Source: Synergistaceae bacterium
Lineage (GTDB): Bacteria; Synergistota; Synergistia; Synergistales; Synergistaceae
Direction of reading: 5' to 3'
NCBI GenBank assembly: GCA_012513245.1
Contig: JAAZCN010000293.1
Coordinates: 1 to 15,130 of the forward strand
DNA length: 15,130 bases
A program made the translations under genes and the position numbers. Every line of letters starts with the position of its first letter. Positions within the stretch are counted from its first letter, which is position 1. This document shows, piece by piece, positions 26-9,503 of the stretch. The notes under the pieces were generated by a model. It did not search any database. It saw nothing but the letters and a program-made list of their open reading frames with translations, and was not told the DNA's origin.

Positions 26-48
26 AAGGGGCGTGTCTTAAAAGAACC

Positions 49-137
49 AATTCTCCGCTGAATGATTTAATCAGCAAATTCTCCGCAGCACGTACTATGC
101 TGCAAATTCACCGTGGCGTTGACGCCACAATTCCCGC
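49..137. repeat. Three tandem hairpins joined by an AAATTCTCC-type linker
   Basis: Three different small inverted repeats follow one another. They are GCTGA/TCAGC (57-61/71-75), GCAGCA/TGCTGC (85-90/98-103) and GTGGCG/CGCCAC (113-118/123-128). Near-identical linkers separate them: AATTCTCC at 49-56, AAATTCTCC at 76-84, AAATTCACC at 104-112 and AATTCCCGC at 129-137. Stem sequences differ completely while linkers and pairing are kept, so this is a designed-looking unit of about 24-28 nt and not simple duplication. It lies upstream of the abiE promoter. There is no U-tract, so it is not an ordinary terminator. Confidence 0.6.
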
Positions 138-160
138 GGCAGGTTACATTCCACAGGCCC

Positions 161-219: not shown

Positions 220-241
220 ACTAGAAAAGCAAGGTGTGGAC

Positions 242-1027
242 ATGAGCAGAGGAAAAAGTATCGTATATGATGAATTTTATAAATCTCTGAATAAAGTGAT
301 GAGAAACAAGTCTTCACTTCAAATAGTGGATATATATTCTGCTTTTCCAGAGATGAAAGAGAAAACCGTTTCATGGTATATGCATAAACTTGTCCATGAT
401 GGAAAGGTCAACAGGGTCAAACATGGTGTGTATTCATTGAAAACCGCTGGTGAGATCGTTGTGCCATACGATCGTATACAGATGGCATCTAGAAAACTAT
501 ACGATGAAATGCAAGAATACGGCTATCCTTTCTACATATCAGGCATAGATGCTCTTATTGGGAAGATGCAGCACATCCCGGAGCAATATCCGGTGGTCAT
601 GGTGGTCGAGCAAAAATCGTCTTCGGTGATCAGAGAAGGATTAATTACAAAATCAAAGGTCGTTATCTCCAAAGAGGACGTAAAAAATATCAACAGAAAT
701 CTTTCTATGGTAAACGTTGATGTAATACTGTTGTCCGGAAAAAATTTCTCAGTACTTTCATCTGAGGGGATGGCCTTTCCCGAGAAAGGGTTTGTTGATT
801 TGTATTACGTCGTCACGCGTATAAAATATCCGATGTCGATGCAGGAACTTTCCCGAACGTATGAAAGTCTCACACGACATAAAAGTTTTTCACAGATAAG
901 AATATTAGATGCAGCAAAAGATACAGGAATATCCGATGAAATAACATGGCTGTTAAAAATTGCAAAAATGACTAAAGAAGCACAGGAGTTCGCCTTTATG
1001 CAATTGAGAGAAGTTTTAAGCAAATGA
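242..1027 (+). CDS. abiEi: AbiEi-like antitoxin (type IV TA / abortive infection)
   Basis: Predicted cytoplasmic protein of 261 residues. In AbiE systems AbiEi is the DNA-binding antitoxin that represses the operon and counteracts AbiEii without a stable complex. Residues about 24-68 look like a winged-helix: a helix pair around IVDIYSAF and TVSWYMHKLVHDGKV, then the short wing VKHGVYSLK. The middle part (GYPFYISGIDAL, VVMVVEQKSSSVI) resembles the AbiEi C-terminal region. I chose ATG 242 because AAGGTG (231-236) sits 5 nt upstream; the in-frame GTG at 236 overlaps that ribosome-binding site. The stop overlaps the next start as ATGA, so translation is probably coupled. The family call rests mainly on the wHTH plus the unmistakable AbiEii partner. 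The gene looks more AT-rich than the housekeeping genes, in keeping with horizontal transfer. Confidence 0.72.
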   Translation: MSRGKSIVYDEFYKSLNKVMRNKSSLQIVDIYSAFPEMKEKTVSWYMHKLVHDGKVNRVKHGVYSLKTAGEIVVPYDRIQMASRKLYDEMQEYGYPFYISGIDALIGKMQHIPEQYPVVMVVEQKSSSVIREGLITKSKVVISKEDVKNINRNLSMVNVDVILLSGKNFSVLSSEGMAFPEKGFVDLYYVVTRIKYPMSMQELSRTYESLTRHKSFSQIRILDAAKDTGISDEITWLLKIAKMTKEAQEFAFMQLREVLSK

Positions 1028-2238
1028 GCACTTACGGTCACTATCAGAATCTACTTCTTGACAGGGTGTCATTTGAACGTGGAACCATTGAAGCAAGGAT
1101 GATATTGGGCGGCTTCAATTCTATTTCGCGTTTTGAGCTATTTCTATGGGATTTGGAAATCCTTCTTCAGCTCCAAAAACGACTTGGGAGCAAAATAGTA
1201 CTTAAAGGAGGAGCTGCGGCACAGTTCTACATACCAATAAAAGCCCAGCGGACCAGTGTGGATATTGACGTTATATGCAGAGCATCAGAGATGGAAGTTC
1301 AAGACGTATTGTCTGAGATCGAACACTCATTAGGTGGCACGGGGGAAGTGTTTAAGTTCAGAAAACATATGCCGCAGAATCCGAGAATTGCGCTGTCATC
1401 TTTGTCTACCTATTTTATGACAGTTCCAACAACATGTACTGACAAGGAACTTATAGGGAGAGGTGCTAAACAGGAAGTCAAACTTGAACTCTTGTTTGTC
1501 GATGAAGAATATCCCATCAATAAGATTCAATCACCTCAATTATTTGCAGTTGAGACTGATGCTATTTTCAACGTACTTCCTTTTGAATGCCTATTTGCCG
1601 ACAAACTAACAACTTTGGGGCCTAACACTATTGGTATCCCGGATGAACGATCTGATGAGCAGTTCAAACAGATATATGATCTTGTTACAATGTTCGATGC
1701 TAACTCCGGATACACGCTGGAAAAAGTAGATGCCATCAAGGAACATTACCAAAACGCAGCACATCATGAGTGCAGGCTACACAGTATAGCCTACGATGAG
1801 AGGCATCTTCTTGAAGACATGAGCAACATTATATCCAAGCTGCGCGATATAGAAAACGACGACCAACTAACGAGGATAGCCAATGATTTCCAATCTCTTT
1901 ATATTAAGCGGACTCAAATCAGGACAAAGTCAGATTGGGCTACTGCTCTAACAAAATTACAGCTTTTGACAGAGAGGATATTCGAAAATAATAGAAATAT
2001 TGACATGATCGAAGAAATTGAGGAACTGATAACCAAATTACAATTTAATGATATTCGTGGTCCGGAAAGAGGTAAAAAAATAATCGCTGTGAAAAAAGCA
2101 TTAAAAATCATTTGCAACGGTATACCTAATATAAGGGCAGATCTTTTCAACAAAAAACCAGAGCGTGTCATTTGGGAGTTGTTGTTGCACAAAGACATGG
2201 AAAATATTACTGTTGCGTTAGAAAATATTTTAGGGTGA
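1024..2238 (+). CDS. abiEii: AbiEii/AbiGii-family nucleotidyltransferase toxin
   Basis: Protein of 404 residues. The family is a DNA-polymerase-beta-like nucleotidyltransferase; related MenT toxins add nucleotides to tRNA and stop translation, and AbiEii toxins are bacteriostatic and can abort phage infection. Key motifs are visible: KGGAAAQF (61-68) followed by RTSVDIDV (76-83) gives the GG-x(n)-RxSxDID signature with metal ligands D80 and D82. A likely third acidic position is E155 in EVKLELLF. FADKLTTLG (191-199, K194) and the R209...YDL region (D219) match the later conserved basic/acidic motifs. The catalytic residues are intact, so the toxin is probably active. The gene starts inside the antitoxin stop codon (ATGA) with only a weak upstream GAGAG, so expression should depend on antitoxin translation. 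Substrate nucleotide and tRNA target cannot be read from the sequence. Confidence 0.85.
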   Translation: MSTYGHYQNLLLDRVSFERGTIEARMILGGFNSISRFELFLWDLEILLQLQKRLGSKIVLKGGAAAQFYIPIKAQRTSVDIDVICRASEMEVQDVLSEIEHSLGGTGEVFKFRKHMPQNPRIALSSLSTYFMTVPTTCTDKELIGRGAKQEVKLELLFVDEEYPINKIQSPQLFAVETDAIFNVLPFECLFADKLTTLGPNTIGIPDERSDEQFKQIYDLVTMFDANSGYTLEKVDAIKEHYQNAAHHECRLHSIAYDERHLLEDMSNIISKLRDIENDDQLTRIANDFQSLYIKRTQIRTKSDWATALTKLQLLTERIFENNRNIDMIEEIEELITKLQFNDIRGPERGKKIIAVKKALKIICNGIPNIRADLFNKKPERVIWELLLHKDMENITVALENILG

Positions 2239-2286
2239 ATTGCAATTACAATGGTGAAGGTAATTTATTGTGGAATACGTACTAAT

Positions 2287-2327
2287 TGATACATATTAAT
2301 TGACATAGTGCGCATAATTATGTATCA
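2287..2327. promoter_or_regulatory. Candidate operator, 9-bp inverted repeat over promoter
   Basis: TGATACATA (2287-2295) is a perfect inverted partner of TATGTATCA (2319-2327), centred on 2307. Several interior positions also pair, giving 14 of 20 symmetric positions. One arm lies just upstream of the -35, the other covers the -10, a typical layout for autorepression by a TA antitoxin. The downstream antitoxin carries an HTH and is the obvious candidate ligand (inference). Confidence 0.6.
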
Positions 2328-2328
2328 T
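2300..2328 (+). promoter_or_regulatory. Strong sigma-70-type promoter of the second TA operon
   Basis: A perfect TTGACA (2300-2305) is followed after 17 nt by TATCAT (2323-2328), a 5 of 6 match. It lies about 24 nt upstream of the toxin start codon, so the leader is short. It shows that this TA pair has its own promoter and need not be read from abiE. Confidence 0.7.
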
Positions 2329-2351
2329 AATGTTGTCTGGGAGGTCGTCCA

Positions 2352-2762
2352 ATGAGCCAACATTACGATCAGAATTATTCTAAGGAAAAAATCACAGAAG
2401 TTTTAAGAAAAATCCAGGACTGCATTCGTAAAGGTAGATATACGATCGCAAAGAATAGCAACAGAGAAGAGAATCTTGACTTTATTCGGGAATATAATCT
2501 TATGTCCAAGAGGCAAAGACAGATACTTCTTCAGATCAAGCCTGAAGATTTTTGTTACTCGTTACAAAATAAAAATATCGGATTTGAGCATGAAACGCTC
2601 TATGTTTATTGTCCACAGGTGAGGTTGTTCAATTTCGATAACGAAGAGAAACGGGTTGATTTATATATTAAATTTAACATCGTTGAAAATAAAGCAGGTT
2701 ATCTGGTGATAGTGGTTTCATTTCATGAACGGAACAAGCCGATCGATTATTGTTTCAGATGA
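2352..2762 (+). CDS. Probable toxin paired with MqsA/Panacea antitoxin
   Basis: Small protein of 136 residues with an alpha-beta pattern: helical N-terminus (SKEKITEVLRKIQDCIRKG), a basic segment IAKNSNREENLDFI, a helix MSKRQRQILLQI, then EDFCYSLQN and C-terminal strands ending VDLYIKFNI...YLVIVVSFHERNKPIDYCF. This overall plan fits small ribonuclease toxins of the MqsR/RelE type, with His and Arg in the last strand (SFHERNKP) as possible catalytic residues. I do not recognise a named family with certainty. The toxin call rests on size, on being the first gene of a two-gene operon 27 bp ahead of an antitoxin-like gene, and on toxin-first order as in mqsRA and higBA. GGGAGG (2339-2344) lies 7 nt before the ATG. 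Target and mechanism are not readable. Confidence 0.6.
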   Translation: MSQHYDQNYSKEKITEVLRKIQDCIRKGRYTIAKNSNREENLDFIREYNLMSKRQRQILLQIKPEDFCYSLQNKNIGFEHETLYVYCPQVRLFNFDNEEKRVDLYIKFNIVENKAGYLVIVVSFHERNKPIDYCFR

Positions 2763-2789
2763 TCATCGAGTTCTAAGGGAGGGATATTA

Positions 2790-3788
2790 ATGAGTGAACA
2801 GACAGTTTTTTGCCCGGAGTGCAGAGAGGATGTAAGATATTCTGTCATAAAGAGGGAAGAGACCGCAAAATTAAAGGGAGAGACCTATGAATTTGTTTCA
2901 CATATAGCTTTTTGTGAAAAATGCGGGGAAGAAATTTATGTTGCTCTGCTTGAGGATAGAAATCTGAAGGCCCTGTATGATGCCTATCGTCAAAGGCATG
3001 ACATTATCTCTCTTGAAAATATCAGGGCCATTCCGGAAAAGTATGGTATTGGTAAAAGGCCTCTCTCTCTCTTGTTGGGATGGGGAGAATTGACGTTTAG
3101 CCGTTATTATGACGGAGATATACCCACAAAACAGTATTCGCAAATATTAAAGAAGATTTATTCCGATCCAGTCTATTACCTTTCATCTCTACTAGAAGGT
3201 AATAAAGACAAATTAAAAAGTGATAAAACATATGAAAAAAGCAAAGCCGAAACGGAAAAACTTTTGAATAACCCTGAAGGACAAATGACTAAAATGGATA
3301 TTGTTGTTGATTATCTGTTGTCGGGATGTCGTGATATTACTCCTCTTTCTTTGCAAAAAGTGCTCTATTATGTTCAGGGTTTTCACTCTGCGTTTTATGG
3401 CACATTCTTATTTACAGAAGAGTGTGAAGCCTGGATTCACGGGCCAGTTTACCCCGACGTTTATAGATGGTACAAAAAATATTGTTTTGATCCCATTGAT
3501 GGTGTGAATGAGTTCGATGTCTCTTTGCTTTCAGTGGAAGAAAAAATTCTTCTTGACAGCATTATCAGAAATGTTTGTTGCTACAGCGGCAAGACACTTG
3601 AGTCATTTACACATACAGAAACGCCTTGGAGTACGGCACGAAGCGGGTTGCCAGCCGACGCGATATCCAAAATGATCATCCATCGAGAGACGATCGGTAG
3701 TTATTTTTCCTCTGTAAAGAAGAAGTACCACATGCTTAACCCCGCAAATATAAAAGACTATATGCACGATATGTTTTCGCAGGTATGA
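2790..3788 (+). CDS. Antitoxin: MqsA-like zinc/HTH fused to Panacea (SocA/DUF4065) domain
   Basis: Protein of 332 residues in three parts. Residues 8-45 carry CxxC-x30-CxxC (C8, C11, C42, C45), the spacing seen in the MqsA zinc domain. Residues about 73-127 form an Xre-like HTH containing LLGWGELTFSRYYDGDIP, also as in MqsA. Residues about 168-330 match the Panacea/SocA (DUF4065) domain, with SLQKVLYYVQGFHSAFYG (187-204) and AWIHGPVYPDVY (214-225). Panacea is a known hyper-promiscuous toxin-neutralising domain. The HTH would repress the operon, probably at the dyad 2287-2327, and the Panacea part would neutralise the upstream toxin. A strong ribosome-binding site, AAGGGAGGG (2775-2783), precedes the ATG by 6 nt, favouring antitoxin excess. 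The roles of zinc domain versus Panacea in neutralisation are inferred. Confidence 0.82.
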   Translation: MSEQTVFCPECREDVRYSVIKREETAKLKGETYEFVSHIAFCEKCGEEIYVALLEDRNLKALYDAYRQRHDIISLENIRAIPEKYGIGKRPLSLLLGWGELTFSRYYDGDIPTKQYSQILKKIYSDPVYYLSSLLEGNKDKLKSDKTYEKSKAETEKLLNNPEGQMTKMDIVVDYLLSGCRDITPLSLQKVLYYVQGFHSAFYGTFLFTEECEAWIHGPVYPDVYRWYKKYCFDPIDGVNEFDVSLLSVEEKILLDSIIRNVCCYSGKTLESFTHTETPWSTARSGLPADAISKMIIHRETIGSYFSSVKKKYHMLNPANIKDYMHDMFSQV

Positions 3789-3819
3789 AAGGGATGGGAC
3801 TGCGGCGGGCGCGTGCCGC

Positions 3820-3912
3820 GGGAGTCGGTGGCAAATCTATTGCAAATTGGTTGGGGAGTCAATGGTTAGGGCTGGCAAGCGATAGGCGAGCATTGGCAAG
3901 CTGTCGGCAAGC
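3820..3912 (-). repeat. 7+4-nt direct-repeat array A1 (GGGAGTC/GCAAAT block, then GGCAAGC x4)
   Basis: Seven-base words recur every 10-11 nt. GGGAGTC (3820), GCAAATC (3831), GCAAATT (3842), GGGGAGT (3853) and GGTTAGG (3864) are followed by GGCAAGC (3874), GGCGAGC (3885), GGCAAGC (3895) and GGCAAGC (3906). The separators are short and variable: GATA, ATT, TGTC, AGTT. On the minus strand this reads like the arrays at 4388-4429 and 9373-9459, including the same GGGAGTC-type block and the flank AGTTGTTAAGACG. It starts about 30 nt after the antitoxin stop codon. Apparent short ORFs across it are artefacts of the repeat. Confidence 0.75.
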
Positions 3913-3969
3913 AGTTGTTAAGACGACCCTTTGGCCCTCTTCGTCTCCCTCGGACGCAACTGATCGCGA

Positions 3970-4034
3970 GAGTACTGTTCCCCTTTAGGGGAAACATTTT
4001 AAACTAACATTAGTACTCGAAGCATTTCGAATGC
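3970..4034 (+). repeat. Structured hairpin module M1
   Basis: Outer arms GAGTACT (3970-3976) and AGTACTC (4012-4018) pair perfectly. They enclose a hairpin, CCCC/GGGG (3980-3983/3988-3991) extended by GTT/AAAC, with loop TTTA. A second hairpin follows: GCATT (4022-4026), TCG, AATGC (4030-4034). The same architecture, with different stem bases, recurs at 4050-4113 and on the minus strand at 4205-4265. Confidence 0.65.
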
Positions 4035-4049
4035 GTTTTGAGATCAGAA

Positions 4050-4113
4050 GGACACCGTTTCTCGTTAGAGAAACTCTTAAGATAAACATCAGTGTCCGCA
4101 CTATTTCGAGTGC
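4050..4113 (+). repeat. Structured hairpin module M2
   Basis: Outer arms GGACAC (4050-4055) and GTGTCC (4092-4097) enclose GTTTCTC/GAGAAAC (4057-4063/4068-4074) with loop GTTA. The follow-on hairpin is GCACT/AGTGC (4098-4102/4109-4113), loop ATTTCG. Compared with M1, both the outer and inner stems have changed on both arms. A 25-nt segment at its end recurs exactly at 9212-9236. Confidence 0.65.
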
Positions 4114-4154
4114 GTTTCGAGAGGGGGGGCCAGTGGCTTTTGTCTGAGCCTTGA

Positions 4155-4185
4155 AAACTCAGTCATAGCCTAAGTTGAAAGCCGC
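4155..4185 (-). repeat. Inter-module conserved block (CR), copy 1
   Basis: The reverse complement of this 31-nt block matches 9256-9286 at 28 of 31 positions, including GGCTATGACTGAGTTT. In both places it lies next to an M-type hairpin module and a GATCGGGG or CCCCGATC junction, so the modules form a composite repeat. Confidence 0.6.
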
Positions 4186-4204
4186 TCCCCGATCTCGAAG
4201 CGCA

Positions 4205-4265
4205 CTCGAAATGGTTCGAGCACTAAGGTTGATCTAATATGTTTTCCTAACGGAAAACTGTACTC
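4205..4265 (-). repeat. Structured hairpin module M3 (inverted)
   Basis: Read on the minus strand it repeats the M1/M2 plan. The outer arms are at 4260-4265 and 4218-4223. The inner hairpin is GTTTTCC/GGAAAAC (4241-4247/4252-4258) with loop GTTA on the minus strand. The follow-on hairpin is CTCGAA/TTCGAG (4205-4210/4215-4220). One outer pair is G.T on the minus strand but C/A on the plus strand, suggesting that any RNA is read from the minus strand here. Confidence 0.6.
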
Positions 4266-4277
4266 TCCCGATTGGAG

Positions 4278-4293
4278 CACTCGAGGACGACGG
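4278..4293 (+). repeat. Partial copy of GAYGACGG-ended hairpin repeat
   Basis: CACTCGAGGACGACGG is the same 3'-half motif as at 10-25 and 9325-9340. It sits between module M3 and the GCTCAGC array, the same position that the fuller copy holds at 9308-9340. Confidence 0.35.
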
Positions 4294-4330
4294 AACTTTT
4301 GAAGATTTAATTTATTAAGGTTTTACAACT

Positions 4331-4374
4331 GCTCAGCTATTGCTCAGCAACCGCTCAGCCATCCATTGCTCAGC
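4331..4374 (+). repeat. 7+4-nt direct-repeat array A2a (GCTCAGC x4)
   Basis: GCTCAGC occurs at 4331, 4342, 4353 and 4368 with separators TATT, AACC and CATCCATT. It is preceded by TTTTACAACT, a lead-in shared with the array upstream of ftsH. Cores are identical while separators vary. Confidence 0.8.
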
Positions 4375-4387
4375 TGCCCCTACAACT

Positions 4388-4429
4388 GCTTGCCAACGTT
4401 TGCCTATCGCTTGCCCGCTTCTGCACGCC
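4388..4429 (+). repeat. 7+4-nt direct-repeat array A2b (GCTTGCC type)
   Basis: GCTTGCC (4388), GTTTGCC (4398), GCTTGCC (4409) and the degenerate GCACGCC (4423) follow TACAACT. This is the inverted counterpart of array A1: CAACTGCTTGCC and TATCGCTTGCC occur in both, but this copy appears to lack one 10-11-nt unit. Together A1 and A2b flank the hairpin modules as distant inverted repeats. Confidence 0.7.
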
Positions 4430-4442
4430 AGTTATCACCTAT

Positions 4443-4571
4443 CGCAATTGGGGCAGAGAGTAGATGATGACGATGCAACACGAAAAATTCAAGCTAAGAC
4501 GTATTAAGCATACGTCGAAGTGAAGGATTTTTCGTGTTGTGAAGTCAGGGCTGCTCTATGCCCCAATTGCG
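4443..4571 (+). repeat. 129-nt palindromic element E, copy 1
   Basis: Three nested stems share the centre near 4507. The ends CGCAATTGGGGCA (4443-4455) and TGCCCCAATTGCG (4559-4571) pair perfectly, and pairing continues to 4463/4551 with one mismatch and one G.T. The middle stem of 13 bp is perfect (4476-4488/4527-4539). The inner stem GACGTAT/ATACGTC (4498-4504/4510-4516) has a 5-nt loop. A second full copy lies inverted at 6491-6620. It carries no ORF and no visible target-site duplication, so it could be a MITE-like element or a structured RNA. It ends 8 nt before the -35 of the tRNA-Gly promoter. Confidence 0.8.
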
Positions 4572-4579
4572 CCTCCCAC

Positions 4580-4609
4580 TTGACAGGGGAGTGATGACAG
4601 TGCTATCAT
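4580..4609 (+). promoter_or_regulatory. tRNA-Gly promoter with extended -10
   Basis: A perfect TTGACA (4580-4585) and TATCAT (4604-4609) are spaced 18 nt apart. TG at 4601-4602 gives an extended -10 (TGCTATCAT). The tRNA starts 11 nt after the -10, so the 5' leader is very short. Confidence 0.75.
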
Positions 4610-4620
4610 TCCTCCGTTGC

Positions 4621-4696
4621 GCGGAAATAGCTCAGCTGGTAGAGCGATGGCCTTCCAAGCCGTAGGTCGCGGGTTCGAGTCCCGTTTTCCGCTCCA
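4621..4696 (+). tRNA. tRNA-Gly (anticodon UCC)
   Basis: A full cloverleaf of 76 nt with encoded CCA. The acceptor is GCGGAAA/TTTCCGC and the discriminator is T. The D-arm is GCTC/GAGC. The anticodon stem ATGGC/GCCGT has loop CTTCCAA, giving anticodon TCC. The T-arm is GCGGG-TTCGAGT-CCCGT. It decodes GGA and probably other glycine codons. It is a single-gene transcript bounded by its own promoter and terminator. Confidence 0.97.
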
Positions 4697-4706
4697 GGAT
4701 ATTTAG

Positions 4707-4734
4707 AGTCCCTGCCTTTGGCAGGGGCTTTTTT
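4707..4734 (+). terminator. Rho-independent terminator of tRNA-Gly
   Basis: CCCTGCC (4710-4716) and GGCAGGG (4720-4726) form the stem, extended outward to about 10 bp with one G.T. The loop is TTT, and CTTTTTT follows. It separates the tRNA from tilS. Confidence 0.9.
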
Positions 4735-4776
4735 CTTTCCCAAAAAGCTTAATGTGTGTATAGTATTAGTGCAAAT

Positions 4777-4806
4777 TTGAACCAATTTCCAACGCTCTTT
4801 TTATAA
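4777..4806 (+). promoter_or_regulatory. Possible promoter of tilS-hpt
   Basis: TTGAAC (4777-4782) and TTATAA (4801-4806), 18 nt apart, lie 34 nt before the tilS start. The match is moderate; some promoter is needed here because the tRNA terminator lies upstream. Confidence 0.35.
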
Positions 4807-4839
4807 GAAGTTCAGGGTGTTTGGCTAAGGAGAAATTAT

Positions 4840-5886
4840 ATGAAAAAACTTAATGCCTCTTACAAAAAAATAAAGGCTGCAGGGGAACGTCAGGGTTGGT
4901 GGGATTCTGAAGGTCTTGTTGCTGCACTTTCCGGCGGCGGGGATTCTGTAGCGATGCTCTGGCTTCTTCACCGTTTCTATAAGGGAAGGATCGTGGCTGC
5001 ACACCTCGATCACTGTACACGTGAAGGGATGTCCCACGTGGATGCGGTCTTCTCTAGGGACCTTTGCGAGAAGTTGGGTATTAAATGCATAGTGAAAACT
5101 GTCGAGGTCTATCAGGAACGTTTGACGGGCGAGTCTTTTGAAATGGCAGGACGCAGGGAGCGTTACACCCATTTCTACGAGACGGCGGAAACAGAAAAGC
5201 TGCCCTTTATAGCGGTCGGCCATTCTGCTGACGATGTGGTTGAGACACAGCTCATGAATCTTTTTAGAGGGACGGGGCTTGAGGGTCTCAGAGGTATACC
5301 CGAGACGCGCGGCATGATAGTCCGTCCGATCATTGATTTCCGTAGAGATGAACTCAGGGAGATACTTCGTGATAATTGTGTTGAGTGGCGTGAAGACGCG
5401 AGCAATACCGACACTGTTTACAAGCGGAACAGGGTGAGGGAAGAGCTTATCCCATGGATAAAGGAAAACTTGAACCCGAATTTTGAGTCTGCCATGGTCG
5501 GTCTGTCAAAGCAGATAGACGCTGAGCTTGAGCATAAGCAGAAAGTTACGGAGAAACACATTGAGGATGTTGTGATCAATATTCCTCCTGCCATCGTCTG
5601 CTGGTCTCCTGCCTTCATCAAAAATATACCGAACGTGGAACTGATAGATATGCTGAGGCTGCAGGGATTGATGCTGGATCTTCCCAGACTTGACAGGGAC
5701 AGGACTTTAAACCTGGCAGCCCTTATCCGAAGGGGAGGGAAATGGCGCTTCCAATGGGCAAGGGATATTGAGGTATGTTATTCGAACAGGGGCATGGGAT
5801 GGCTGCATCGTGAAGATATTGGAAAAGGCGTAGCGAAAAATAAGCAAAATACCGAAAGATCAGACCTTCCATGGTGGGCGAGATAG
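4840..5886 (+). CDS. tilS: tRNA(Ile)-lysidine synthase TilS
   Basis: Protein of 348 residues. It ligates lysine to C34 of tRNA-Ile(CAU) using ATP, changing its decoding from AUG to AUA. The N-type ATP-pyrophosphatase domain is clear: PP-loop SGGGDS (31-36), AHLDHCTREG in the place of the family's HxNHxLR motif, GHSADDVVET (from H128), then RGTGLEGLRGI. Next comes WREDASNTDTVYKRNRVREELIP, the conserved DxSN...RNxxR block. It is shorter than the roughly 430-470 residues of E. coli or Bacillus enzymes and nearer the short forms lacking the full C-terminal domains. TAAGGAG (4826-4832) sits 7 nt before ATG. AUA codons are common in the neighbouring genes, so the enzyme should matter to this host. 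It is the first gene of the tilS-hpt-ftsH cluster. Confidence 0.95.
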   Translation: MKKLNASYKKIKAAGERQGWWDSEGLVAALSGGGDSVAMLWLLHRFYKGRIVAAHLDHCTREGMSHVDAVFSRDLCEKLGIKCIVKTVEVYQERLTGESFEMAGRRERYTHFYETAETEKLPFIAVGHSADDVVETQLMNLFRGTGLEGLRGIPETRGMIVRPIIDFRRDELREILRDNCVEWREDASNTDTVYKRNRVREELIPWIKENLNPNFESAMVGLSKQIDAELEHKQKVTEKHIEDVVINIPPAIVCWSPAFIKNIPNVELIDMLRLQGLMLDLPRLDRDRTLNLAALIRRGGKWRFQWARDIEVCYSNRGMGWLHREDIGKGVAKNKQNTERSDLPWWAR

Positions 5887-5955
5887 TGATATTCATGTTA
5901 TTATGTCTAATGTTTTTGAGCAGAAAAATCTTTGGCGTTGGGGAGTGTTCCTTAC

Positions 5956-6522
5956 TTGGAATATAAAATAGGTAAAACACTTATTTCTGAAGAAAGACTA
6001 CAGGCCAAAATCAAGGAACTTGGGGAGAAATTAAGCAAAGATTATGCCGGAAAAGAGCTGATCTGCGTTTGTGTCCTCAAAGGTGCTGTGGTATTTCTTG
6101 TAGATCTTATCAGGCACATTAGTCCTGAAGTGGACGTAAGGATAGATTTCCTTGCTATTTCCTCTTATGGAGCATCTACAAAAAGCAGCGGTGTGGTGCA
6201 GATCCAGATGGACCTCAGCACAGACATCTATGGCAAAAACGTCCTTATAATAGAGGACATCGTCGATACAGGGCTATCCCTGAAATACATCAAGGCACTG
6301 CTGCACGAACGTAAACCGCAGAGCCTTGCGATATGCGTACTTCTTGATAAGCCGGATCGCCGTAAGGAAACAGTTGAGGTAGAATATACAGGTTTTACGA
6401 TCCCCGATGAGTTTGTAATAGGTTATGGTCTGGATTATGCAGGGAAGTTTCGCCATCTGCCGGCGGTACATATCGCAGAACCTGTTGCGGCGCAATTGGG
6501 GCATCTCGAAGCCCTGGTTTAG
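5956..6522 (+). CDS. hpt: Hypoxanthine phosphoribosyltransferase
   Basis: Predicted 188 residues, cytoplasmic. It transfers phosphoribose from PRPP to hypoxanthine (and usually guanine) in purine salvage. The PRPP-binding signature VLIIEDIVDTG is at 96-106. VCVLKGAVVFLVDL, the flexible-loop SSYGAST and VIGYGLDYAGKFRHLPAVHI are all typical of the family. I chose TTG 5956 because TTGGGGAG (5938-5945) precedes it by 10 nt and the protein then begins EYKIGKTLISEERLQ as usual; TTG at 5932 or 5938 are alternatives without a better ribosome-binding site. The last ten residues (QLGHLEALV and the preceding Ala) are encoded by the terminus of repeat element E copy 2, an unusual tail beyond the normal C-terminus. 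It lies 69 bp after tilS, probably the same transcript. Confidence 0.93.
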   Translation: MEYKIGKTLISEERLQAKIKELGEKLSKDYAGKELICVCVLKGAVVFLVDLIRHISPEVDVRIDFLAISSYGASTKSSGVVQIQMDLSTDIYGKNVLIIEDIVDTGLSLKYIKALLHERKPQSLAICVLLDKPDRRKETVEVEYTGFTIPDEFVIGYGLDYAGKFRHLPAVHIAEPVAAQLGHLEALV

Positions 6523-6620
6523 CAACACTCGAAGTCCTTCGCTTCGACGTATGACCAATACGCCTTAGCTTGAACTTCTTCGAGTTGCGTCACCATCATC
6601 TCCGATCTGCCCCAATTGCG
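6491..6620 (-). repeat. 130-nt palindromic element E, copy 2 (overlaps hpt 3' end)
   Basis: The ends CGCAATTGGGGCA (6491-6503) and TGCCCCAATTGCG (6608-6620) pair perfectly. Read on the minus strand it aligns along its length with copy 1. Shared stretches include AGATGATG, TTCAAGCTAAG, CATACGTCGAAG, GAAGGA and CAGGGCT. The middle stem keeps pairing with different bases (GCAAC and TCGAAG against CTTCGA and GTTGC: 6522-6526, 6529-6534, 6578-6588). In the inner stem one pair is G.T on the minus strand and C/A on the plus strand, so the minus strand is the better RNA candidate. The first 32 nt lie inside hpt. The palindrome may also serve to stop transcription after hpt, but no U-tract follows. 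Confidence 0.8.
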
Positions 6621-6687
6621 GAGAAATATTGAGAGAAACAACCGGAGAATTAGAAATTAAATCTTTTACATCTAGAACCAAAATCAC

Positions 6688-6716
6688 CGTCATTCCCGTA
6701 TGCAACTGAGCGGGAG
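6688..6716 (-). repeat. GAYGACGG-ended hairpin repeat, inverted copy
   Basis: CCGTCATTCCCG...CGGGAGT has stem TCCCG/CGGGA (6694-6698/6711-6715). Its reverse complement aligns with 9308-9340 (CCCGCTCA..GCAT.CGGG.ATGACGG). Similar short inverted repeats are common in many bacterial genomes. It stands immediately before a 7+4 array, as at 9308-9459. Confidence 0.6.
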
Positions 6717-6736
6717 TTTGATATAGGTTTACAACT

Positions 6737-6830
6737 GCTCAGTAATATTTTTAACAAAAGTTTGACTACCGTTTGACAATTGTTTGACGATAGTTTGACA
6801 AATTTTACAACCGCTTAGCTATCGCTCAGC
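6737..6830 (+). repeat. 7+4-nt direct-repeat array A3 (GTTTGAC x4 flanked by GCTCAGC-type units)
   Basis: After the lead-in TTTACAACT, GCTCAGT lies at 6737. GTTTGAC then recurs exactly every 11 nt at 6760, 6771, 6782 and 6793 with separators TACC, AATT and GATA. TTTTACAACC leads to GCTTAGC (6813), TATC and GCTCAGC (6824). The array mixes two core types in one place and lies 67 nt upstream of ftsH. Confidence 0.8.
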
Positions 6831-6896
6831 AAAACTTCTAACTGTAGATGGCAGGAAAATTTAGAAAAACCAAGGTAAGAAAGCGAGGTCACACGT

Positions 6897-8906
6897 TTGA
6901 AGAAAACCTCTAAAAATGTTGGGATGTATATAATATTGATCGTGCTTGTAGTCAGTCTGGTGAATGTATTTTTGACTCCGGACGGGAATAAGGCCGCTCA
7001 GGTCGCCGAGGTACTTCCTTACAGTCAGTTTTTGAACGAAGTCAACATAGGTAATGTTGCTAAAGTCAGAATAGACCACGAGCAGCTTAAAGGGACACTG
7101 AAGTCCGGCAAGGAATTTACGACATACATTCTTGACCCGGGAACGCTGCCCGGTGAGATAGCCGGGAATGGCGTTGAGGTCGAGGTCGTTCCTCCTCCGA
7201 AGAACTCATGGTTAACGGCTCTGCTGACATCCCTGCTTCCTACATTGCTTCTTGTAGGTGTATGGATCTACTTCATGTACCGCATGCAGGGCGGAGGAAA
7301 CAAGGTTATGGGTTTTGGAAAGAGCAAAGCCAAGCTCTTTATGGACAACAGGCCCAAGGTCACGTTTGCTGACGTTGCGGGATGTGACGAGTCGAAGGAA
7401 GAGCTTGAAGAGGTAGTGCTTTTCCTTAAGGATCCCGCAAAGTTTACGAGGCTTGGTGCTAAGGTTCCTCGTGGCGTATTGCTTCTGGGTGCGCCCGGAA
7501 CCGGAAAGACCCTTCTTTCGAGGGCTGTAGCGGGGGAGGCTAACGTTCCCTTCTTCAGCATAAGCGGATCTGATTTTGTTGAAATGTTTGTCGGTGTTGG
7601 AGCTGCTCGCGTAAGGGACCTTTTTGAGCAGGCTCGTAAGAATCAACCATGCATAATCTTCATAGACGAGATAGATGCTGTTGGACGTCATCGCGGTGCC
7701 GGGCTCGGAGGCGGTCACGATGAACGTGAACAGACACTCAATCAGCTCCTTGTTGAGATGGACGGTTTCGAAGGAGAAACAGGAATCATTCTGCTTGCCG
7801 CGACAAACAGACCTGACATACTTGACCCGGCATTGCTCCGTCCGGGACGTTTCGACAGACAGATAGTCGTAGACAGACCTGACGTAAGAGGTAGACATGA
7901 CATATTGAAGGTACACCTTAAAGGCAAGAAGGTCAGCAAAAAAGTCGACCTTGATGTCATAGCCCGCAGGACCCCCGGTTTTGTGGGTGCAGATATCGCA
8001 AACCTTGTAAATGAGGCCGCGCTTCTTGCAGGACGCAGAGGCAAGGACAGGCTTGGAATGGCGGAGTTTGAAGAGGCGATCGACAGGGTAATGGCAGGTC
8101 CTGAACGCAAGAGCCGGGTAATAAGCAAAAAAGAACGCGAGATAATTGCTTATCATGAAGCCGGACATGCCCTGGTCGCAAGCAAGATCCCCGGCAGTGA
8201 TCCGGTGCATAAGATATCTATAATACCGCGCGGCCACATGGCGCTTGGCTACACTCTGCAGCTGCCTGAAGAGGACAGGTTCCTCATTTCAAAGAAGGAG
8301 CTCTCGGACAGGATCACGATACTGCTTAGTGGACGTGTTGCTGAACTGCTTAAGTTCCAAGATGTCACTACAGGGGCTTCGAATGATCTTGAAAGGGCTA
8401 CACAGATCGCCAGGCAGATGGTAACCGAGTTCGGAATGAGCGACAGGCTTGGACTTGTCACGCTGGGCAGAAAACAGCATGAGGTCTTCCTTGGCAGAGA
8501 TATCATGGAAGATAGGAACTACAGCGAAGAGATAGCCTATGCGATAGACCAGGAAGTTCGCAGCATAATAGATGAGTGTTACAGCAGAGCAAAAAAGATC
8601 CTTGTAGAACAGAATGAACGTCTCGAGGAGATAACAAGATTGCTTCTTGAAAAAGAAGTCCTTGATGGCGACGAGCTTGATGAGCTCCTTGGATATCCGA
8701 AAAAAGAGGCTCCGGAGGTAATTCCAGGATCTGAGTATGAGGATCCTGACGAAGAGACCGCTGACGAAGAGACCGCTGAAGAAGAGACTGAAGCAGAGGA
8801 AGAAAACGGGTCCGAAGAGGAAGAAGATAATAAGAAGCATCGGGACGAAACTGAGACTGAAGATCAGGATGATGAAGGCGAAGATCCTGACGAAGAAGAA
8901 GAATAA
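6897..8906 (+). CDS. ftsH: ATP-dependent zinc metalloprotease FtsH
   Basis: Protein of 669 residues, membrane-anchored AAA+ protease that degrades misfolded membrane and short-lived regulatory proteins as a hexamer. TM1 is near 9-27, an extracytoplasmic domain spans about 28-104, and TM2 is near 105-128. Walker A GAPGTGKT is at 198-205, the pore-loop MFVGVG at 230-235, and Walker B IIFIDEID at 253-260. The second region of homology includes R315 and R318. The zinc site HEAGH is at 420-424 with third ligand D497 in [12 protein letters not shown]. The start is TTG, supported by GAGG (6885-6888) at 8-nt spacing; [17 protein letters not shown] then reads as the usual N-terminus. After residue about 602 the protein carries an extremely acidic tail of some 60 residues, partly built from a 15-nt DNA repeat (8748-8792), not typical of the family core. 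Terminated at 8918-8955. Confidence 0.98.
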
Positions 8907-8917
8907 AACAAAAGATC

Positions 8918-8955
8918 ATAAAGGAGCCGTGAGGCTCCTTTATTTGGCTTTTTTT
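8918..8955 (+). terminator. Rho-independent terminator of ftsH
   Basis: ATAAAGGAGCC (8918-8928), loop GTGA and GGCTCCTTTAT (8933-8943) form an 11-bp stem. TTGGCTTTTTTT follows. It begins 12 nt after the ftsH stop. Confidence 0.9.
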
Positions 8956-8992
8956 GGGGGGCAATTGATCGGCGTATAGCTGAGACATTATT

Positions 8993-9021
8993 TCCACAAT
9001 TCAAGGAATGTATGCTATAAT
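8993..9021 (+). promoter_or_regulatory. tRNA-Pro promoter with extended -10
   Basis: A perfect TATAAT (9016-9021) is preceded by TG at 9013-9014 (TGCTATAAT). A weak -35 TCCACA (8993-8998) lies 17 nt upstream. The tRNA begins 12 nt after the -10. The tRNA-Gly promoter has the same TGCTATNAT form. Confidence 0.7.
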
Positions 9022-9032
9022 TCCCTGTGTCG

Positions 9033-9110
9033 CGGGATGTAGCGCAGCCTGGTTAGCGTACCTGCTTTGGGAGCAGGGGGTCGTCGGTTCAAATCCGACT
9101 ATCCCGACCA
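9033..9110 (+). tRNA. tRNA-Pro (anticodon UGG)
   Basis: A 78-nt cloverleaf with encoded CCA. The acceptor is CGGGATG/TATCCCG with a closing G.T, and the discriminator is A. The D-arm is GCGC/GCGT with loop AGCCTGGTTA. The anticodon stem CCTGC/GCAGG has loop TTTGGGA, giving anticodon TGG. The T-arm is GTCGG-TTCAAAT-CCGAC. It reads CCA and probably other proline codons. Confidence 0.97.
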
Positions 9111-9118
9111 TTGAGATT

Positions 9119-9159
9119 AAAAGAGCTGATGAGAGATAATATCTTTCATCAGCTCTTTT
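9119..9159. terminator. Long-stem terminator after tRNA-Pro
   Basis: AAAAGAGCTGATGA (9119-9132) pairs perfectly with 9146-9159, and the stem continues inward to about 19 bp with one G.T and a 3-nt loop (9138-9140). It has A- and T-runs at both ends, so it can act in both directions. The U-run is short (TTTT), and a repeat array starts at the very next base. Confidence 0.8.
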
Positions 9160-9199
9160 GCTGAGCAGTTGCTGAGCGATAGCTGAGCAATGGCTGAGC
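9160..9199 (-). repeat. 7+4-nt direct-repeat array A4 (GCTGAGC x4)
   Basis: GCTGAGC occurs at 9160, 9171, 9182 and 9193, exactly 11 nt apart, with separators AGTT, GATA and AATG. On the minus strand these read GCTCAGC with CATT, TATC and AACT, the same core and separators as the plus-strand arrays. It abuts the tRNA-Pro terminator without a gap and is an inverted partner of the array at 9373-9412. Confidence 0.85.
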
Positions 9200-9211
9200 A
9201 AAAGTTTTTCC

Positions 9212-9245
9212 CAGTGTCCGCACTATTTCGAGTGCGCTTTGAGAT
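9212..9245 (+). repeat. Partial hairpin module M4
   Basis: The first 25 nt (9212-9236) are identical to the 3' part of module M2, including GTGTCC and the hairpin GCACT/AGTGC (9220-9224/9231-9235). The 5' strand of the outer stem and the GTTA hairpin are missing, so this is a truncated copy. Confidence 0.6.
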
Positions 9246-9255
9246 CGGGGATTCA

Positions 9256-9286
9256 GCGGCTTCGAACTTCGGCTATGACTGAGTTT
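9256..9286 (+). repeat. Inter-module conserved block (CR), copy 2
   Basis: 28 of 31 positions match the reverse complement of 4155-4185. It follows module M4 as copy 1 follows M3 on the minus strand, confirming a composite repeat order M-CR. Confidence 0.6.
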
Positions 9287-9307
9287 ATAGACCCGAAAAC
9301 TAGACCT

Positions 9308-9340
9308 GGATCCCCGCTCAACGGCATGCGGGGATGACGG
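9308..9340 (+). repeat. GAYGACGG-ended hairpin repeat, full copy
   Basis: ATCCCCGC (9310-9317), a 10-nt loop and GCGGGGAT (9328-9335) form an 8-bp stem followed by GACGG. Related copies are at 6688-6716 (inverted), 4278-4293 and 10-25 (partial). No U-run follows directly. Confidence 0.65.
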
Positions 9341-9372
9341 GATTTTTAAAAATTCATCATGGTCTTACAATT

Positions 9373-9459
9373 GCTCAGCAACTGCTCAGCAACAGCTCAG
9401 CCATTGCTCAGCTAAATTTTTTAACCAGTGACTCCCCAACCGATTTCCAATCGACTCCC
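9373..9459 (+). repeat. 7+4-nt direct-repeat array A5 (GCTCAGC x4, then GACTCCC block)
   Basis: GCTCAGC occurs at 9373, 9384, 9395 and 9406, exactly 11 nt apart, with separators AACT, AACA and CATT. After TTAACCAGT come GACTCCC (9430), GATTTCC (9442) and GACTCCC (9453). Read on the minus strand, block order and flanks match array A1 (GGGAGTC block, TGGTTA, four cores, AGTTGT/AATTGT, AAGAC), but the core is GCTGAGC where A1 has GGCAAGC. The rest of the gap to uvrB (9460-9571) holds only a weak CCTTT/AAAGG hairpin and a possible promoter. Confidence 0.8.
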
Positions 9460-9503
9460 GCGACGATATCCGTCGTATTTCCCCCTTTTCAGGAGAAAGG
9501 CGG

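Follow-up and report, generated by a model that had tools for sequence, protein, structure and literature searches.

Intergenic heptamer arrays in a Synergistaceae genome as probable gene-less ends of S23/IVP elements

Introduction

In Cyanobacteria, the STRR sequences are heptanucleotide repeats. Arrays of another heptamer, TAACTGA, occur between genes in Beggiatoaceae, Cyanobacteria and Bacteroidetes and were proposed as translational sites (PMC4679880). A heptamer repeat next to a protein-coding gene is known from the 23S rRNA IVS of Coxiella, where three copies of GACAGAT with varying copy number lie upstream of an S23p gene and the whole was called a selfish element (PMC4990558). For the CGTC-type REPs, no dedicated transposase is reported in the available sections of PMC3733652. 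SARP regulators have heptamer repeats (PMC5930380). PhoB/OmpR or SARP boxes are 7+4 direct repeats.

Here, we analyzed a stretch of 15,130 nucleotides from a Synergistaceae bacterium (the window), in which an earlier note had pointed out arrays of a 7-nt core and a usually 4-nt separator. The locus shares features with each of the systems above. As in the 23S rRNA IVS, tandem heptamers accompany the IVP genes of relatives; unlike the IVS, as far as it is covered by the available part of that report, the arrays are intergenic, outside rRNA, on both sides and 7+4 spaced, and the gene is absent in the window. With the TAACTGA arrays they share intergenic 7-nt direct repeats across phyla; those arrays, however, consist of heptamer direct repeats of a single word, and the searched parts of PMC4679880 mention neither spacers nor S23 nor a helix bundle. 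Internal stretches between the arrays carry CGTC palindromes, often as dimers, as CGTC-type REPs do, whereas the latter, by the available sections of the same source (PMC3733652), have no 11-bp arrays of their own. The search found no publication that describes flanking heptamer arrays as a general feature of IVP genes, subscription literature lying mostly outside it.

Results

Arrays in the window

The window encodes tilS, hpt, ftsH, uvrB, uvrA and an rlmB-like gene. Its closest relative is Synergistaceae UBA1037 (genome G001, locus L001; UvrB 92% identical), and array analysis beyond the window rests on genomes of relatives. A strict motif scan yielded 10 unit triples in the window and none in 300 of 300 Markov-1 shuffles, and the rescan confirmed five arrays at or near positions 3820-3912, 4331-4429, 6737-6830, 9160-9199 and 9373-9459. 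They sit in gaps of protein and tRNA genes outside 23S rRNA and thus not at the classical IVS location. PF05635 was absent in a profile scan of the nine main window ORFs; these ORFs hold no cas domain either, and the separators are not CRISPR spacers but four-nucleotide NAYN sequences.

The first group of arrays begins with an outer hairpin, GCGGC...GCCGC (3802-3819), beside a degenerate GAYTNNC block (word E; minus strand, 3820-3860) of four units 11-12 bp apart, both recognized by eye. Core chaining then gave a leader with four GCTYGCC cores (word B, BBBB; minus strand, 3874-3923) and, beyond a REP-like, partly palindromic internal stretch (3924-4319, arms 4043-4128 and 4187-4272), a leader with four GCTCAGC cores (4320-4374) and three GYTTGCC cores (4388-4415) on the plus strand. 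Also on the plus strand, a leader with one degenerate core, GCTCAGT, lies at 6729-6744, followed by a leader-like unit and four GTTTGAC cores (6749-6799; hpt-ftsH gap) and two GCTYAGC cores (6813-6830), the last two modules again by core chaining. Two modules of four GCTCAGC cores, one on the minus strand (9160-9199, core chaining) and one on the plus strand (9373-9412, core chaining and strict scan; leader 9362-9368), enclose an internal stretch (9200-9361) that carries a pair of CGTC-type REPs; a plus-strand GAYTNNC block (9430-9459) and an outer hairpin (9461-9475) complete this group at 9430-9475.

The cores were said to be nearly uniform within an array. Positions 4331-4429 consist of two modules, four GCTCAGC and then three GCTTGCC/GTTTGCC cores, and 6737-6830 likewise of four GTTTGAC and then two GCTYAGC cores, so that uniformity belongs to the module and not to these whole arrays. 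The same block order had been seen in 3820-3920 and in 9366-9459; by eye, both indeed share a word module, a GAYTNNC-like block and a short hairpin, but their GAYTNNC blocks were not called as runs by the strict scan. The hairpin at 3802-3819 is placed like the hairpins at the ends of an IVP element found at loci L281 and L276 of relatives, and window positions 9436-9473, read on the minus strand, match the left end of this element with 84% identity over 38 bases (E-values of 5.8e-6 for L276 and 6.7e-6 for L281).

Other features were observed in the window. An AbiEii-like toxin gene and its DUF6577 partner, a small ORF and an MqsA/SocA(Panacea)-like antitoxin gene occupy 236-3788. A MITE-like element, roughly 130 bp long and bounded by inverted ends of 21 bp (CGCAATTGGGGC...), is present at 4443-4571 and 6491-6620 and in L001 at 6746-6873 and 15546-15676, the positions being near tRNA-Gly and after hpt. 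A second class of intergenic repeats consists of tandem hairpin units of the AATTC-NCC type, with stems that change but remain matched (e.g., GCAGCC-GGCTGC and GCGACG-CGTCGC), at window 40-150, L001 9455-9560 and in many array loci.

Array grammar in relatives

Units were chained in 57 loci by their cores only, ignoring the separators. The arrays share a grammar of 11-bp units, GYTYNNC+NAYN, mostly arranged as a leader unit and three or four cores of the same word. Adenine occupied base 2 of the four-base separators in 276 of 278 cases and C or T base 3 in all 278; core spacing was 11, 10 and 12 bp in 282, 23 and 2 of 307 cases, larger gaps ending a module by construction. Of 112 modules comprising three or more cores, 107 contained a single word (shuffles: mean 10.6, maximum 22, n=2000), and in 93 a leader unit ending AC-NAYN stood eleven bases upstream. 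The proposed common 7+4 format therefore stands, with the NAYN grammar extending it to relatives, as does the difference in cores between arrays.

The separators do not drift freely, as the earlier note had supposed, since they obey NAYN and adjacent ones are alike less often than expected (identical in 2/128 pairs, expected 8.1); core and separator were thus not copied together as in ordinary 11-bp tandem repeats. Nor does each core have its own separators, the tie to the word being weak: mutual information was 0.06 bit for base 1 (p.0016) and for base 4 (p.0028) and not significant for bases 2 and 3. Within the modules of L137-L192, neighboring separators were anti-correlated, with alternating C/T at base 3; their dissimilarity possibly marks survivors of slippage.

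A generic three-core pattern matched 14 of the 149 genomes nearest G001, the reversed pattern giving one match. By their NAYN separators, nine of the 14 are true (G001, G002, G004, G005, G006, G007, G009, G013 and G018), and the other five look unrelated. An agnostic scan for C-NAYN-G spacing returned 163 runs, compared with 4 when the sequence was reversed, and added the words GYTTCAC and GAYTNNC. In a second phylum, that of a Sporobacter MAG, the unit pattern occurred in 12/398 genomes, seven of them with at least two matches (158, 64, 43, 18, 8, 4 and 2), mainly with the word GYTYAAC; the reversed control gave 4 matches in 3 genomes. A viral origin was considered and rejected: the 10 viral loci are ordinary-looking tandem repeats; in eight of them the separators do not vary at all, three of these eight being the same sequence, and in L222 and L223 one separator differs. 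Mobilization as REPs by a RAYT was likewise rejected, PF01797 (Y1_Tnp) being absent in 7/9 array genomes, with one copy with an inner stop in G001 and one in G018.

Direct repeats of the 7+4 type are also read by PhoB/OmpR-type winged-helix regulators, and the arrays agree with such tandem boxes in their 7-nt repeats, 4-nt spacers and 11-bp period. However, the array gaps are not mainly promoters, with 33 tandem, 16 convergent and 7 divergent arrangements of the flanking genes (n=56), and PF00486 is present in no copy in the array-rich G007 and G009 and in 1-3 copies in seven other array genomes (genome completeness not given). We consider it extremely unlikely that the arrays are boxes of this kind.

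Neighboring arrays less than 1.3 kb apart (n=36) are often divergent (24 -/+, 8 +/+, 3 -/-, 1 +/-), and the left and right arms of such pairs often differ in word. The latter speaks against the units forming RNA hairpins in transcripts, although GCTCAGC and GTTTGAC nearly self-pair and some window stretches fold well (9155-9205, z of -5.7 and -6.7; 9363-9462, z of -2.8; 6738-6840, z of -2.3). In three of seven stretches z lay between -0.5 and 1.0, and sep1 and sep3 showed no excess of pairing. Natural separators of GYTYGCC modules (n=11) folded slightly better than re-ordered (0/100) or any-position ones (3/100), whereas those of GCTYAGC (n=29) and GTTYGAC (n=15) modules folded no better than shuffled ones. 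A role as RNA hairpins thus appears very unlikely.

The note had further proposed that cores are homogenized or replaced as a set, and orthologous arrays were compared for cores that change over constant separators. Of the 32 pairs of orthologous arrays listed, some are probably anchored in repeats and only pairs with gene flanks were relied on. Arrays agree at the sites L137/L145 and L144/L148 and also at L169/L183, where the array stretch is 99-100% identical and the flanks 74-98%; the excess at L169 9801-10000 may reflect recombination or conservation. Orthologous arrays are nevertheless not constant in word, A being GCTYAGC and C GTTYGAC: L142, L146 and L175 carry words A, A and B, L144 reads BBCC-AAAA where L173 has CCCC and GYTTCAC, and the window has C and A words where L001 has A and B words. 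Whole modules or intergenic stretches differ at these sites, rather than cores over unchanged separators, and one pair, BBBB of the window versus AAA in the orthologous L170 (G006), is readable as a replacement of cores.

A composite of a CGTC REP pair and an array, about 300 bp long, occurs twice in G004, once with 3+4 and once with 2+2 units (81.5% identity over 303 bases). Such copies, together with the intergenic position, mosaic structure and fast turnover of the arrays, would also be expected of neutral satellite-like debris that is dispersed with the CGTC REPs and has no reader. Against this, the cores are fixed while the N bases of the separators vary, the same grammar is found in two phyla, and the arrays are linked to one IVP clade, as described below, which makes neutral debris highly improbable.

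IVP genes and their flanking heptamers

Beside the arrays of the first 57 loci, no recurrent gene was detected apart from orthologues and shared gene families, and IVP genes were missed there. PF05635 was reached by clustering neighbor ORFs of the second-phylum (Bacillota) loci and by reading the hpt-ftsH gap of G004; 14 of the 42 genomes searched contained 32 matches. This gap has 36 bp and no array in G002 (L002), carries word arrays without an IVP gene in the window and G001 (L001), and contains an IVP gene flanked by GAYTNNC arrays in G004:C4 and G009:C244 (L281, L276; proteins 95% identical). The gap exists in an empty, an array-only and a gene-bearing state; no target duplication was found. 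Another IVP gene, in G004:C11 (L272), lies between GCTCAGC arrays that point the same way and are not inverted, and GYTYAAC 11-bp arrays stand on both sides of the IVP genes of L273, L275 and L287. Of the three words in the window, two (GYTYGCC and GTTYGAC) were seen beside no IVP gene examined, and PF05635 gave no match in the array-rich G001, G005 and G007 (genome completeness not given). Hits in the array-poor G008, G015 and G017 were left out of account.

Three sets of IVP loci were compared with mechanical ORFs from the same loci as control genes. Set 1, on which the hypothesis was formed, holds 23 of the 32 PF05635 matches, leaving out one below the cut-off, four that cover the domain in part, two L282 copies inside 23S rRNA and two without a locus. 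The independent set 2 consists of the 30 loci returned (matches in 92/301 genomes), and set 3 of 12 records hand-chosen from 24, with proteins outside the tree described below and none 50% identical to a member of its 7+4 clade. At least three inverted shared 8-mers were present in 22/23 IVP loci of set 1 versus 4/26 control genes, in 22/30 of set 2 versus 7/39 (Mann-Whitney p 8.7e-6), and in 7/12 of set 3 (no control). The words beside IVP genes are heptamers, as a rule with period 7: both flanks had a period-7 score of 20 or more out of 33 in 11/16, 17/30 and 10/12 IVP loci versus 1/25, 0/35 and 0/6 controls (pooled, 38/58 versus 1/66), and arrays on either side were present in 48/58 versus 11/66.

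In a tree of 53 IVPs, seven proteins drawn from both genome groups form one clade (support 100/100), and period 11 (7+4) was found in six of these seven, compared to 1/58 among the remaining IVP loci and 0/66 among the controls. The clade member without 11-bp arrays is L274 (G006:C4:233108), whose flanks were seen to consist of GAGAAGTG words parted by varied hairpins instead of NAYN. IVP similarity also predicts the flanking word (0/2000 permutations reach the observed value), a repeated 6-mer being shared by 19.9% of 176 pairs at 50-90% identity, 3.7% of 720 at 40-50% and 2.1% of 1054 below 40%. Within the 7+4 clade, no repeated 6-mer is common to two IVPs whose words differ, and co-inheritance rather than recognition may therefore explain the correlation.

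On cyanobacterial plasmids, IVP genes were located in the gap from cas6 to cas4 (Pseudanabaena galeata, Anabaena sp. 90), within a cmr operon (Picosynechococcus) and flanked by two nrd genes (Nostoc edaphicum), most of them adjoined by heptamer arrays with words such as GTAGGGA, GGTGACA and AGTCAGG. These words may correspond to STRRs, and they differ from the window arrays in having period 7, not 11. At L326, L329 and L331, the IVP genes of such plasmids lie inside CRISPR-cas operons, a location that may explain IVP in CRISPR-association screens; the legend to a figure about CRISPR associations in PMC10910872 names IVP.

The tight gaps (cas6-cas4) and cmr operons occupied by plasmid IVP genes would also suit elements that insert in or beside arrays as a target, the arrays being an independently selected family of binding sites for another protein, and arrays without an IVP gene far outnumber those with one. 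Yet word and spacing follow the IVP clade, and the control genes of these loci seldom have period-7 arrays next to them (1/66). We regard insertion into such a target as unlikely.

Discussion

Heptamers upstream of one S23p gene were known before, as given in the available part of PMC4990558; here, flanking arrays accompany IVP genes in general, their spacing follows one IVP clade and their word follows IVP relatedness. We conclude, with a probability of roughly 0.6, that the arrays are gene-less end sequences of small elements which are dispersed and, in their gene-bearing form, encode S23/IVP (PF05635, a four-helix bundle), a reading compared to which the RNA-hairpin, RAYT and PhoB-box explanations fared worse. 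The 7-nt cores then represent words of the IVP element family; in one IVP clade, NAYN separators bring the step between words to 11 bp, which is one helical turn. A DNA-binding protein, suggested earlier as the reason for this step, is plausible, and S23/IVP is a candidate.

According to this IVP-element reading, the window arrays would be gene-less or remnant element ends joined to CGTC-type REPs. The S23/IVP protein is described as a homopentamer in the available part of PMC4990558, and the solved structure of an IVP relative, 2gsc, has five chains. Such a pentamer, or a partner, may read the repeated words with one subunit per unit; a leader and four cores make five units and would suit one ring per module, which is suggestive only. 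Gene-less copies may spread or be kept in trans, and the element may be mobile. Different word sets could represent different specificities of different IVP sublineages, in which case a site re-occupied by another subfamily would appear to have exchanged all its cores together.

More tentatively, and with considerable doubt, IVP/S23 genes may form the core of widespread mobile elements without a known transposase, whose only protein would be a pentameric four-helix bundle reading lineage-specific heptamer arrays at the ends. Gene-less copies might seed the intergenic repeats of many genomes, perhaps including TAACTGA and the cyanobacterial STRRs, with word and spacing evolving as a code that fits the protein. 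The widespread IVP/S23 family has no assigned function, and the intergenic heptamer arrays described in separate groups came with no protein. A connection between the two makes it testable whether the ring reads the repeats and whether this is the way in which the element spreads or is tolerated, and the 7+4 clade, in which the words differ and the format is fixed, offers a natural test.
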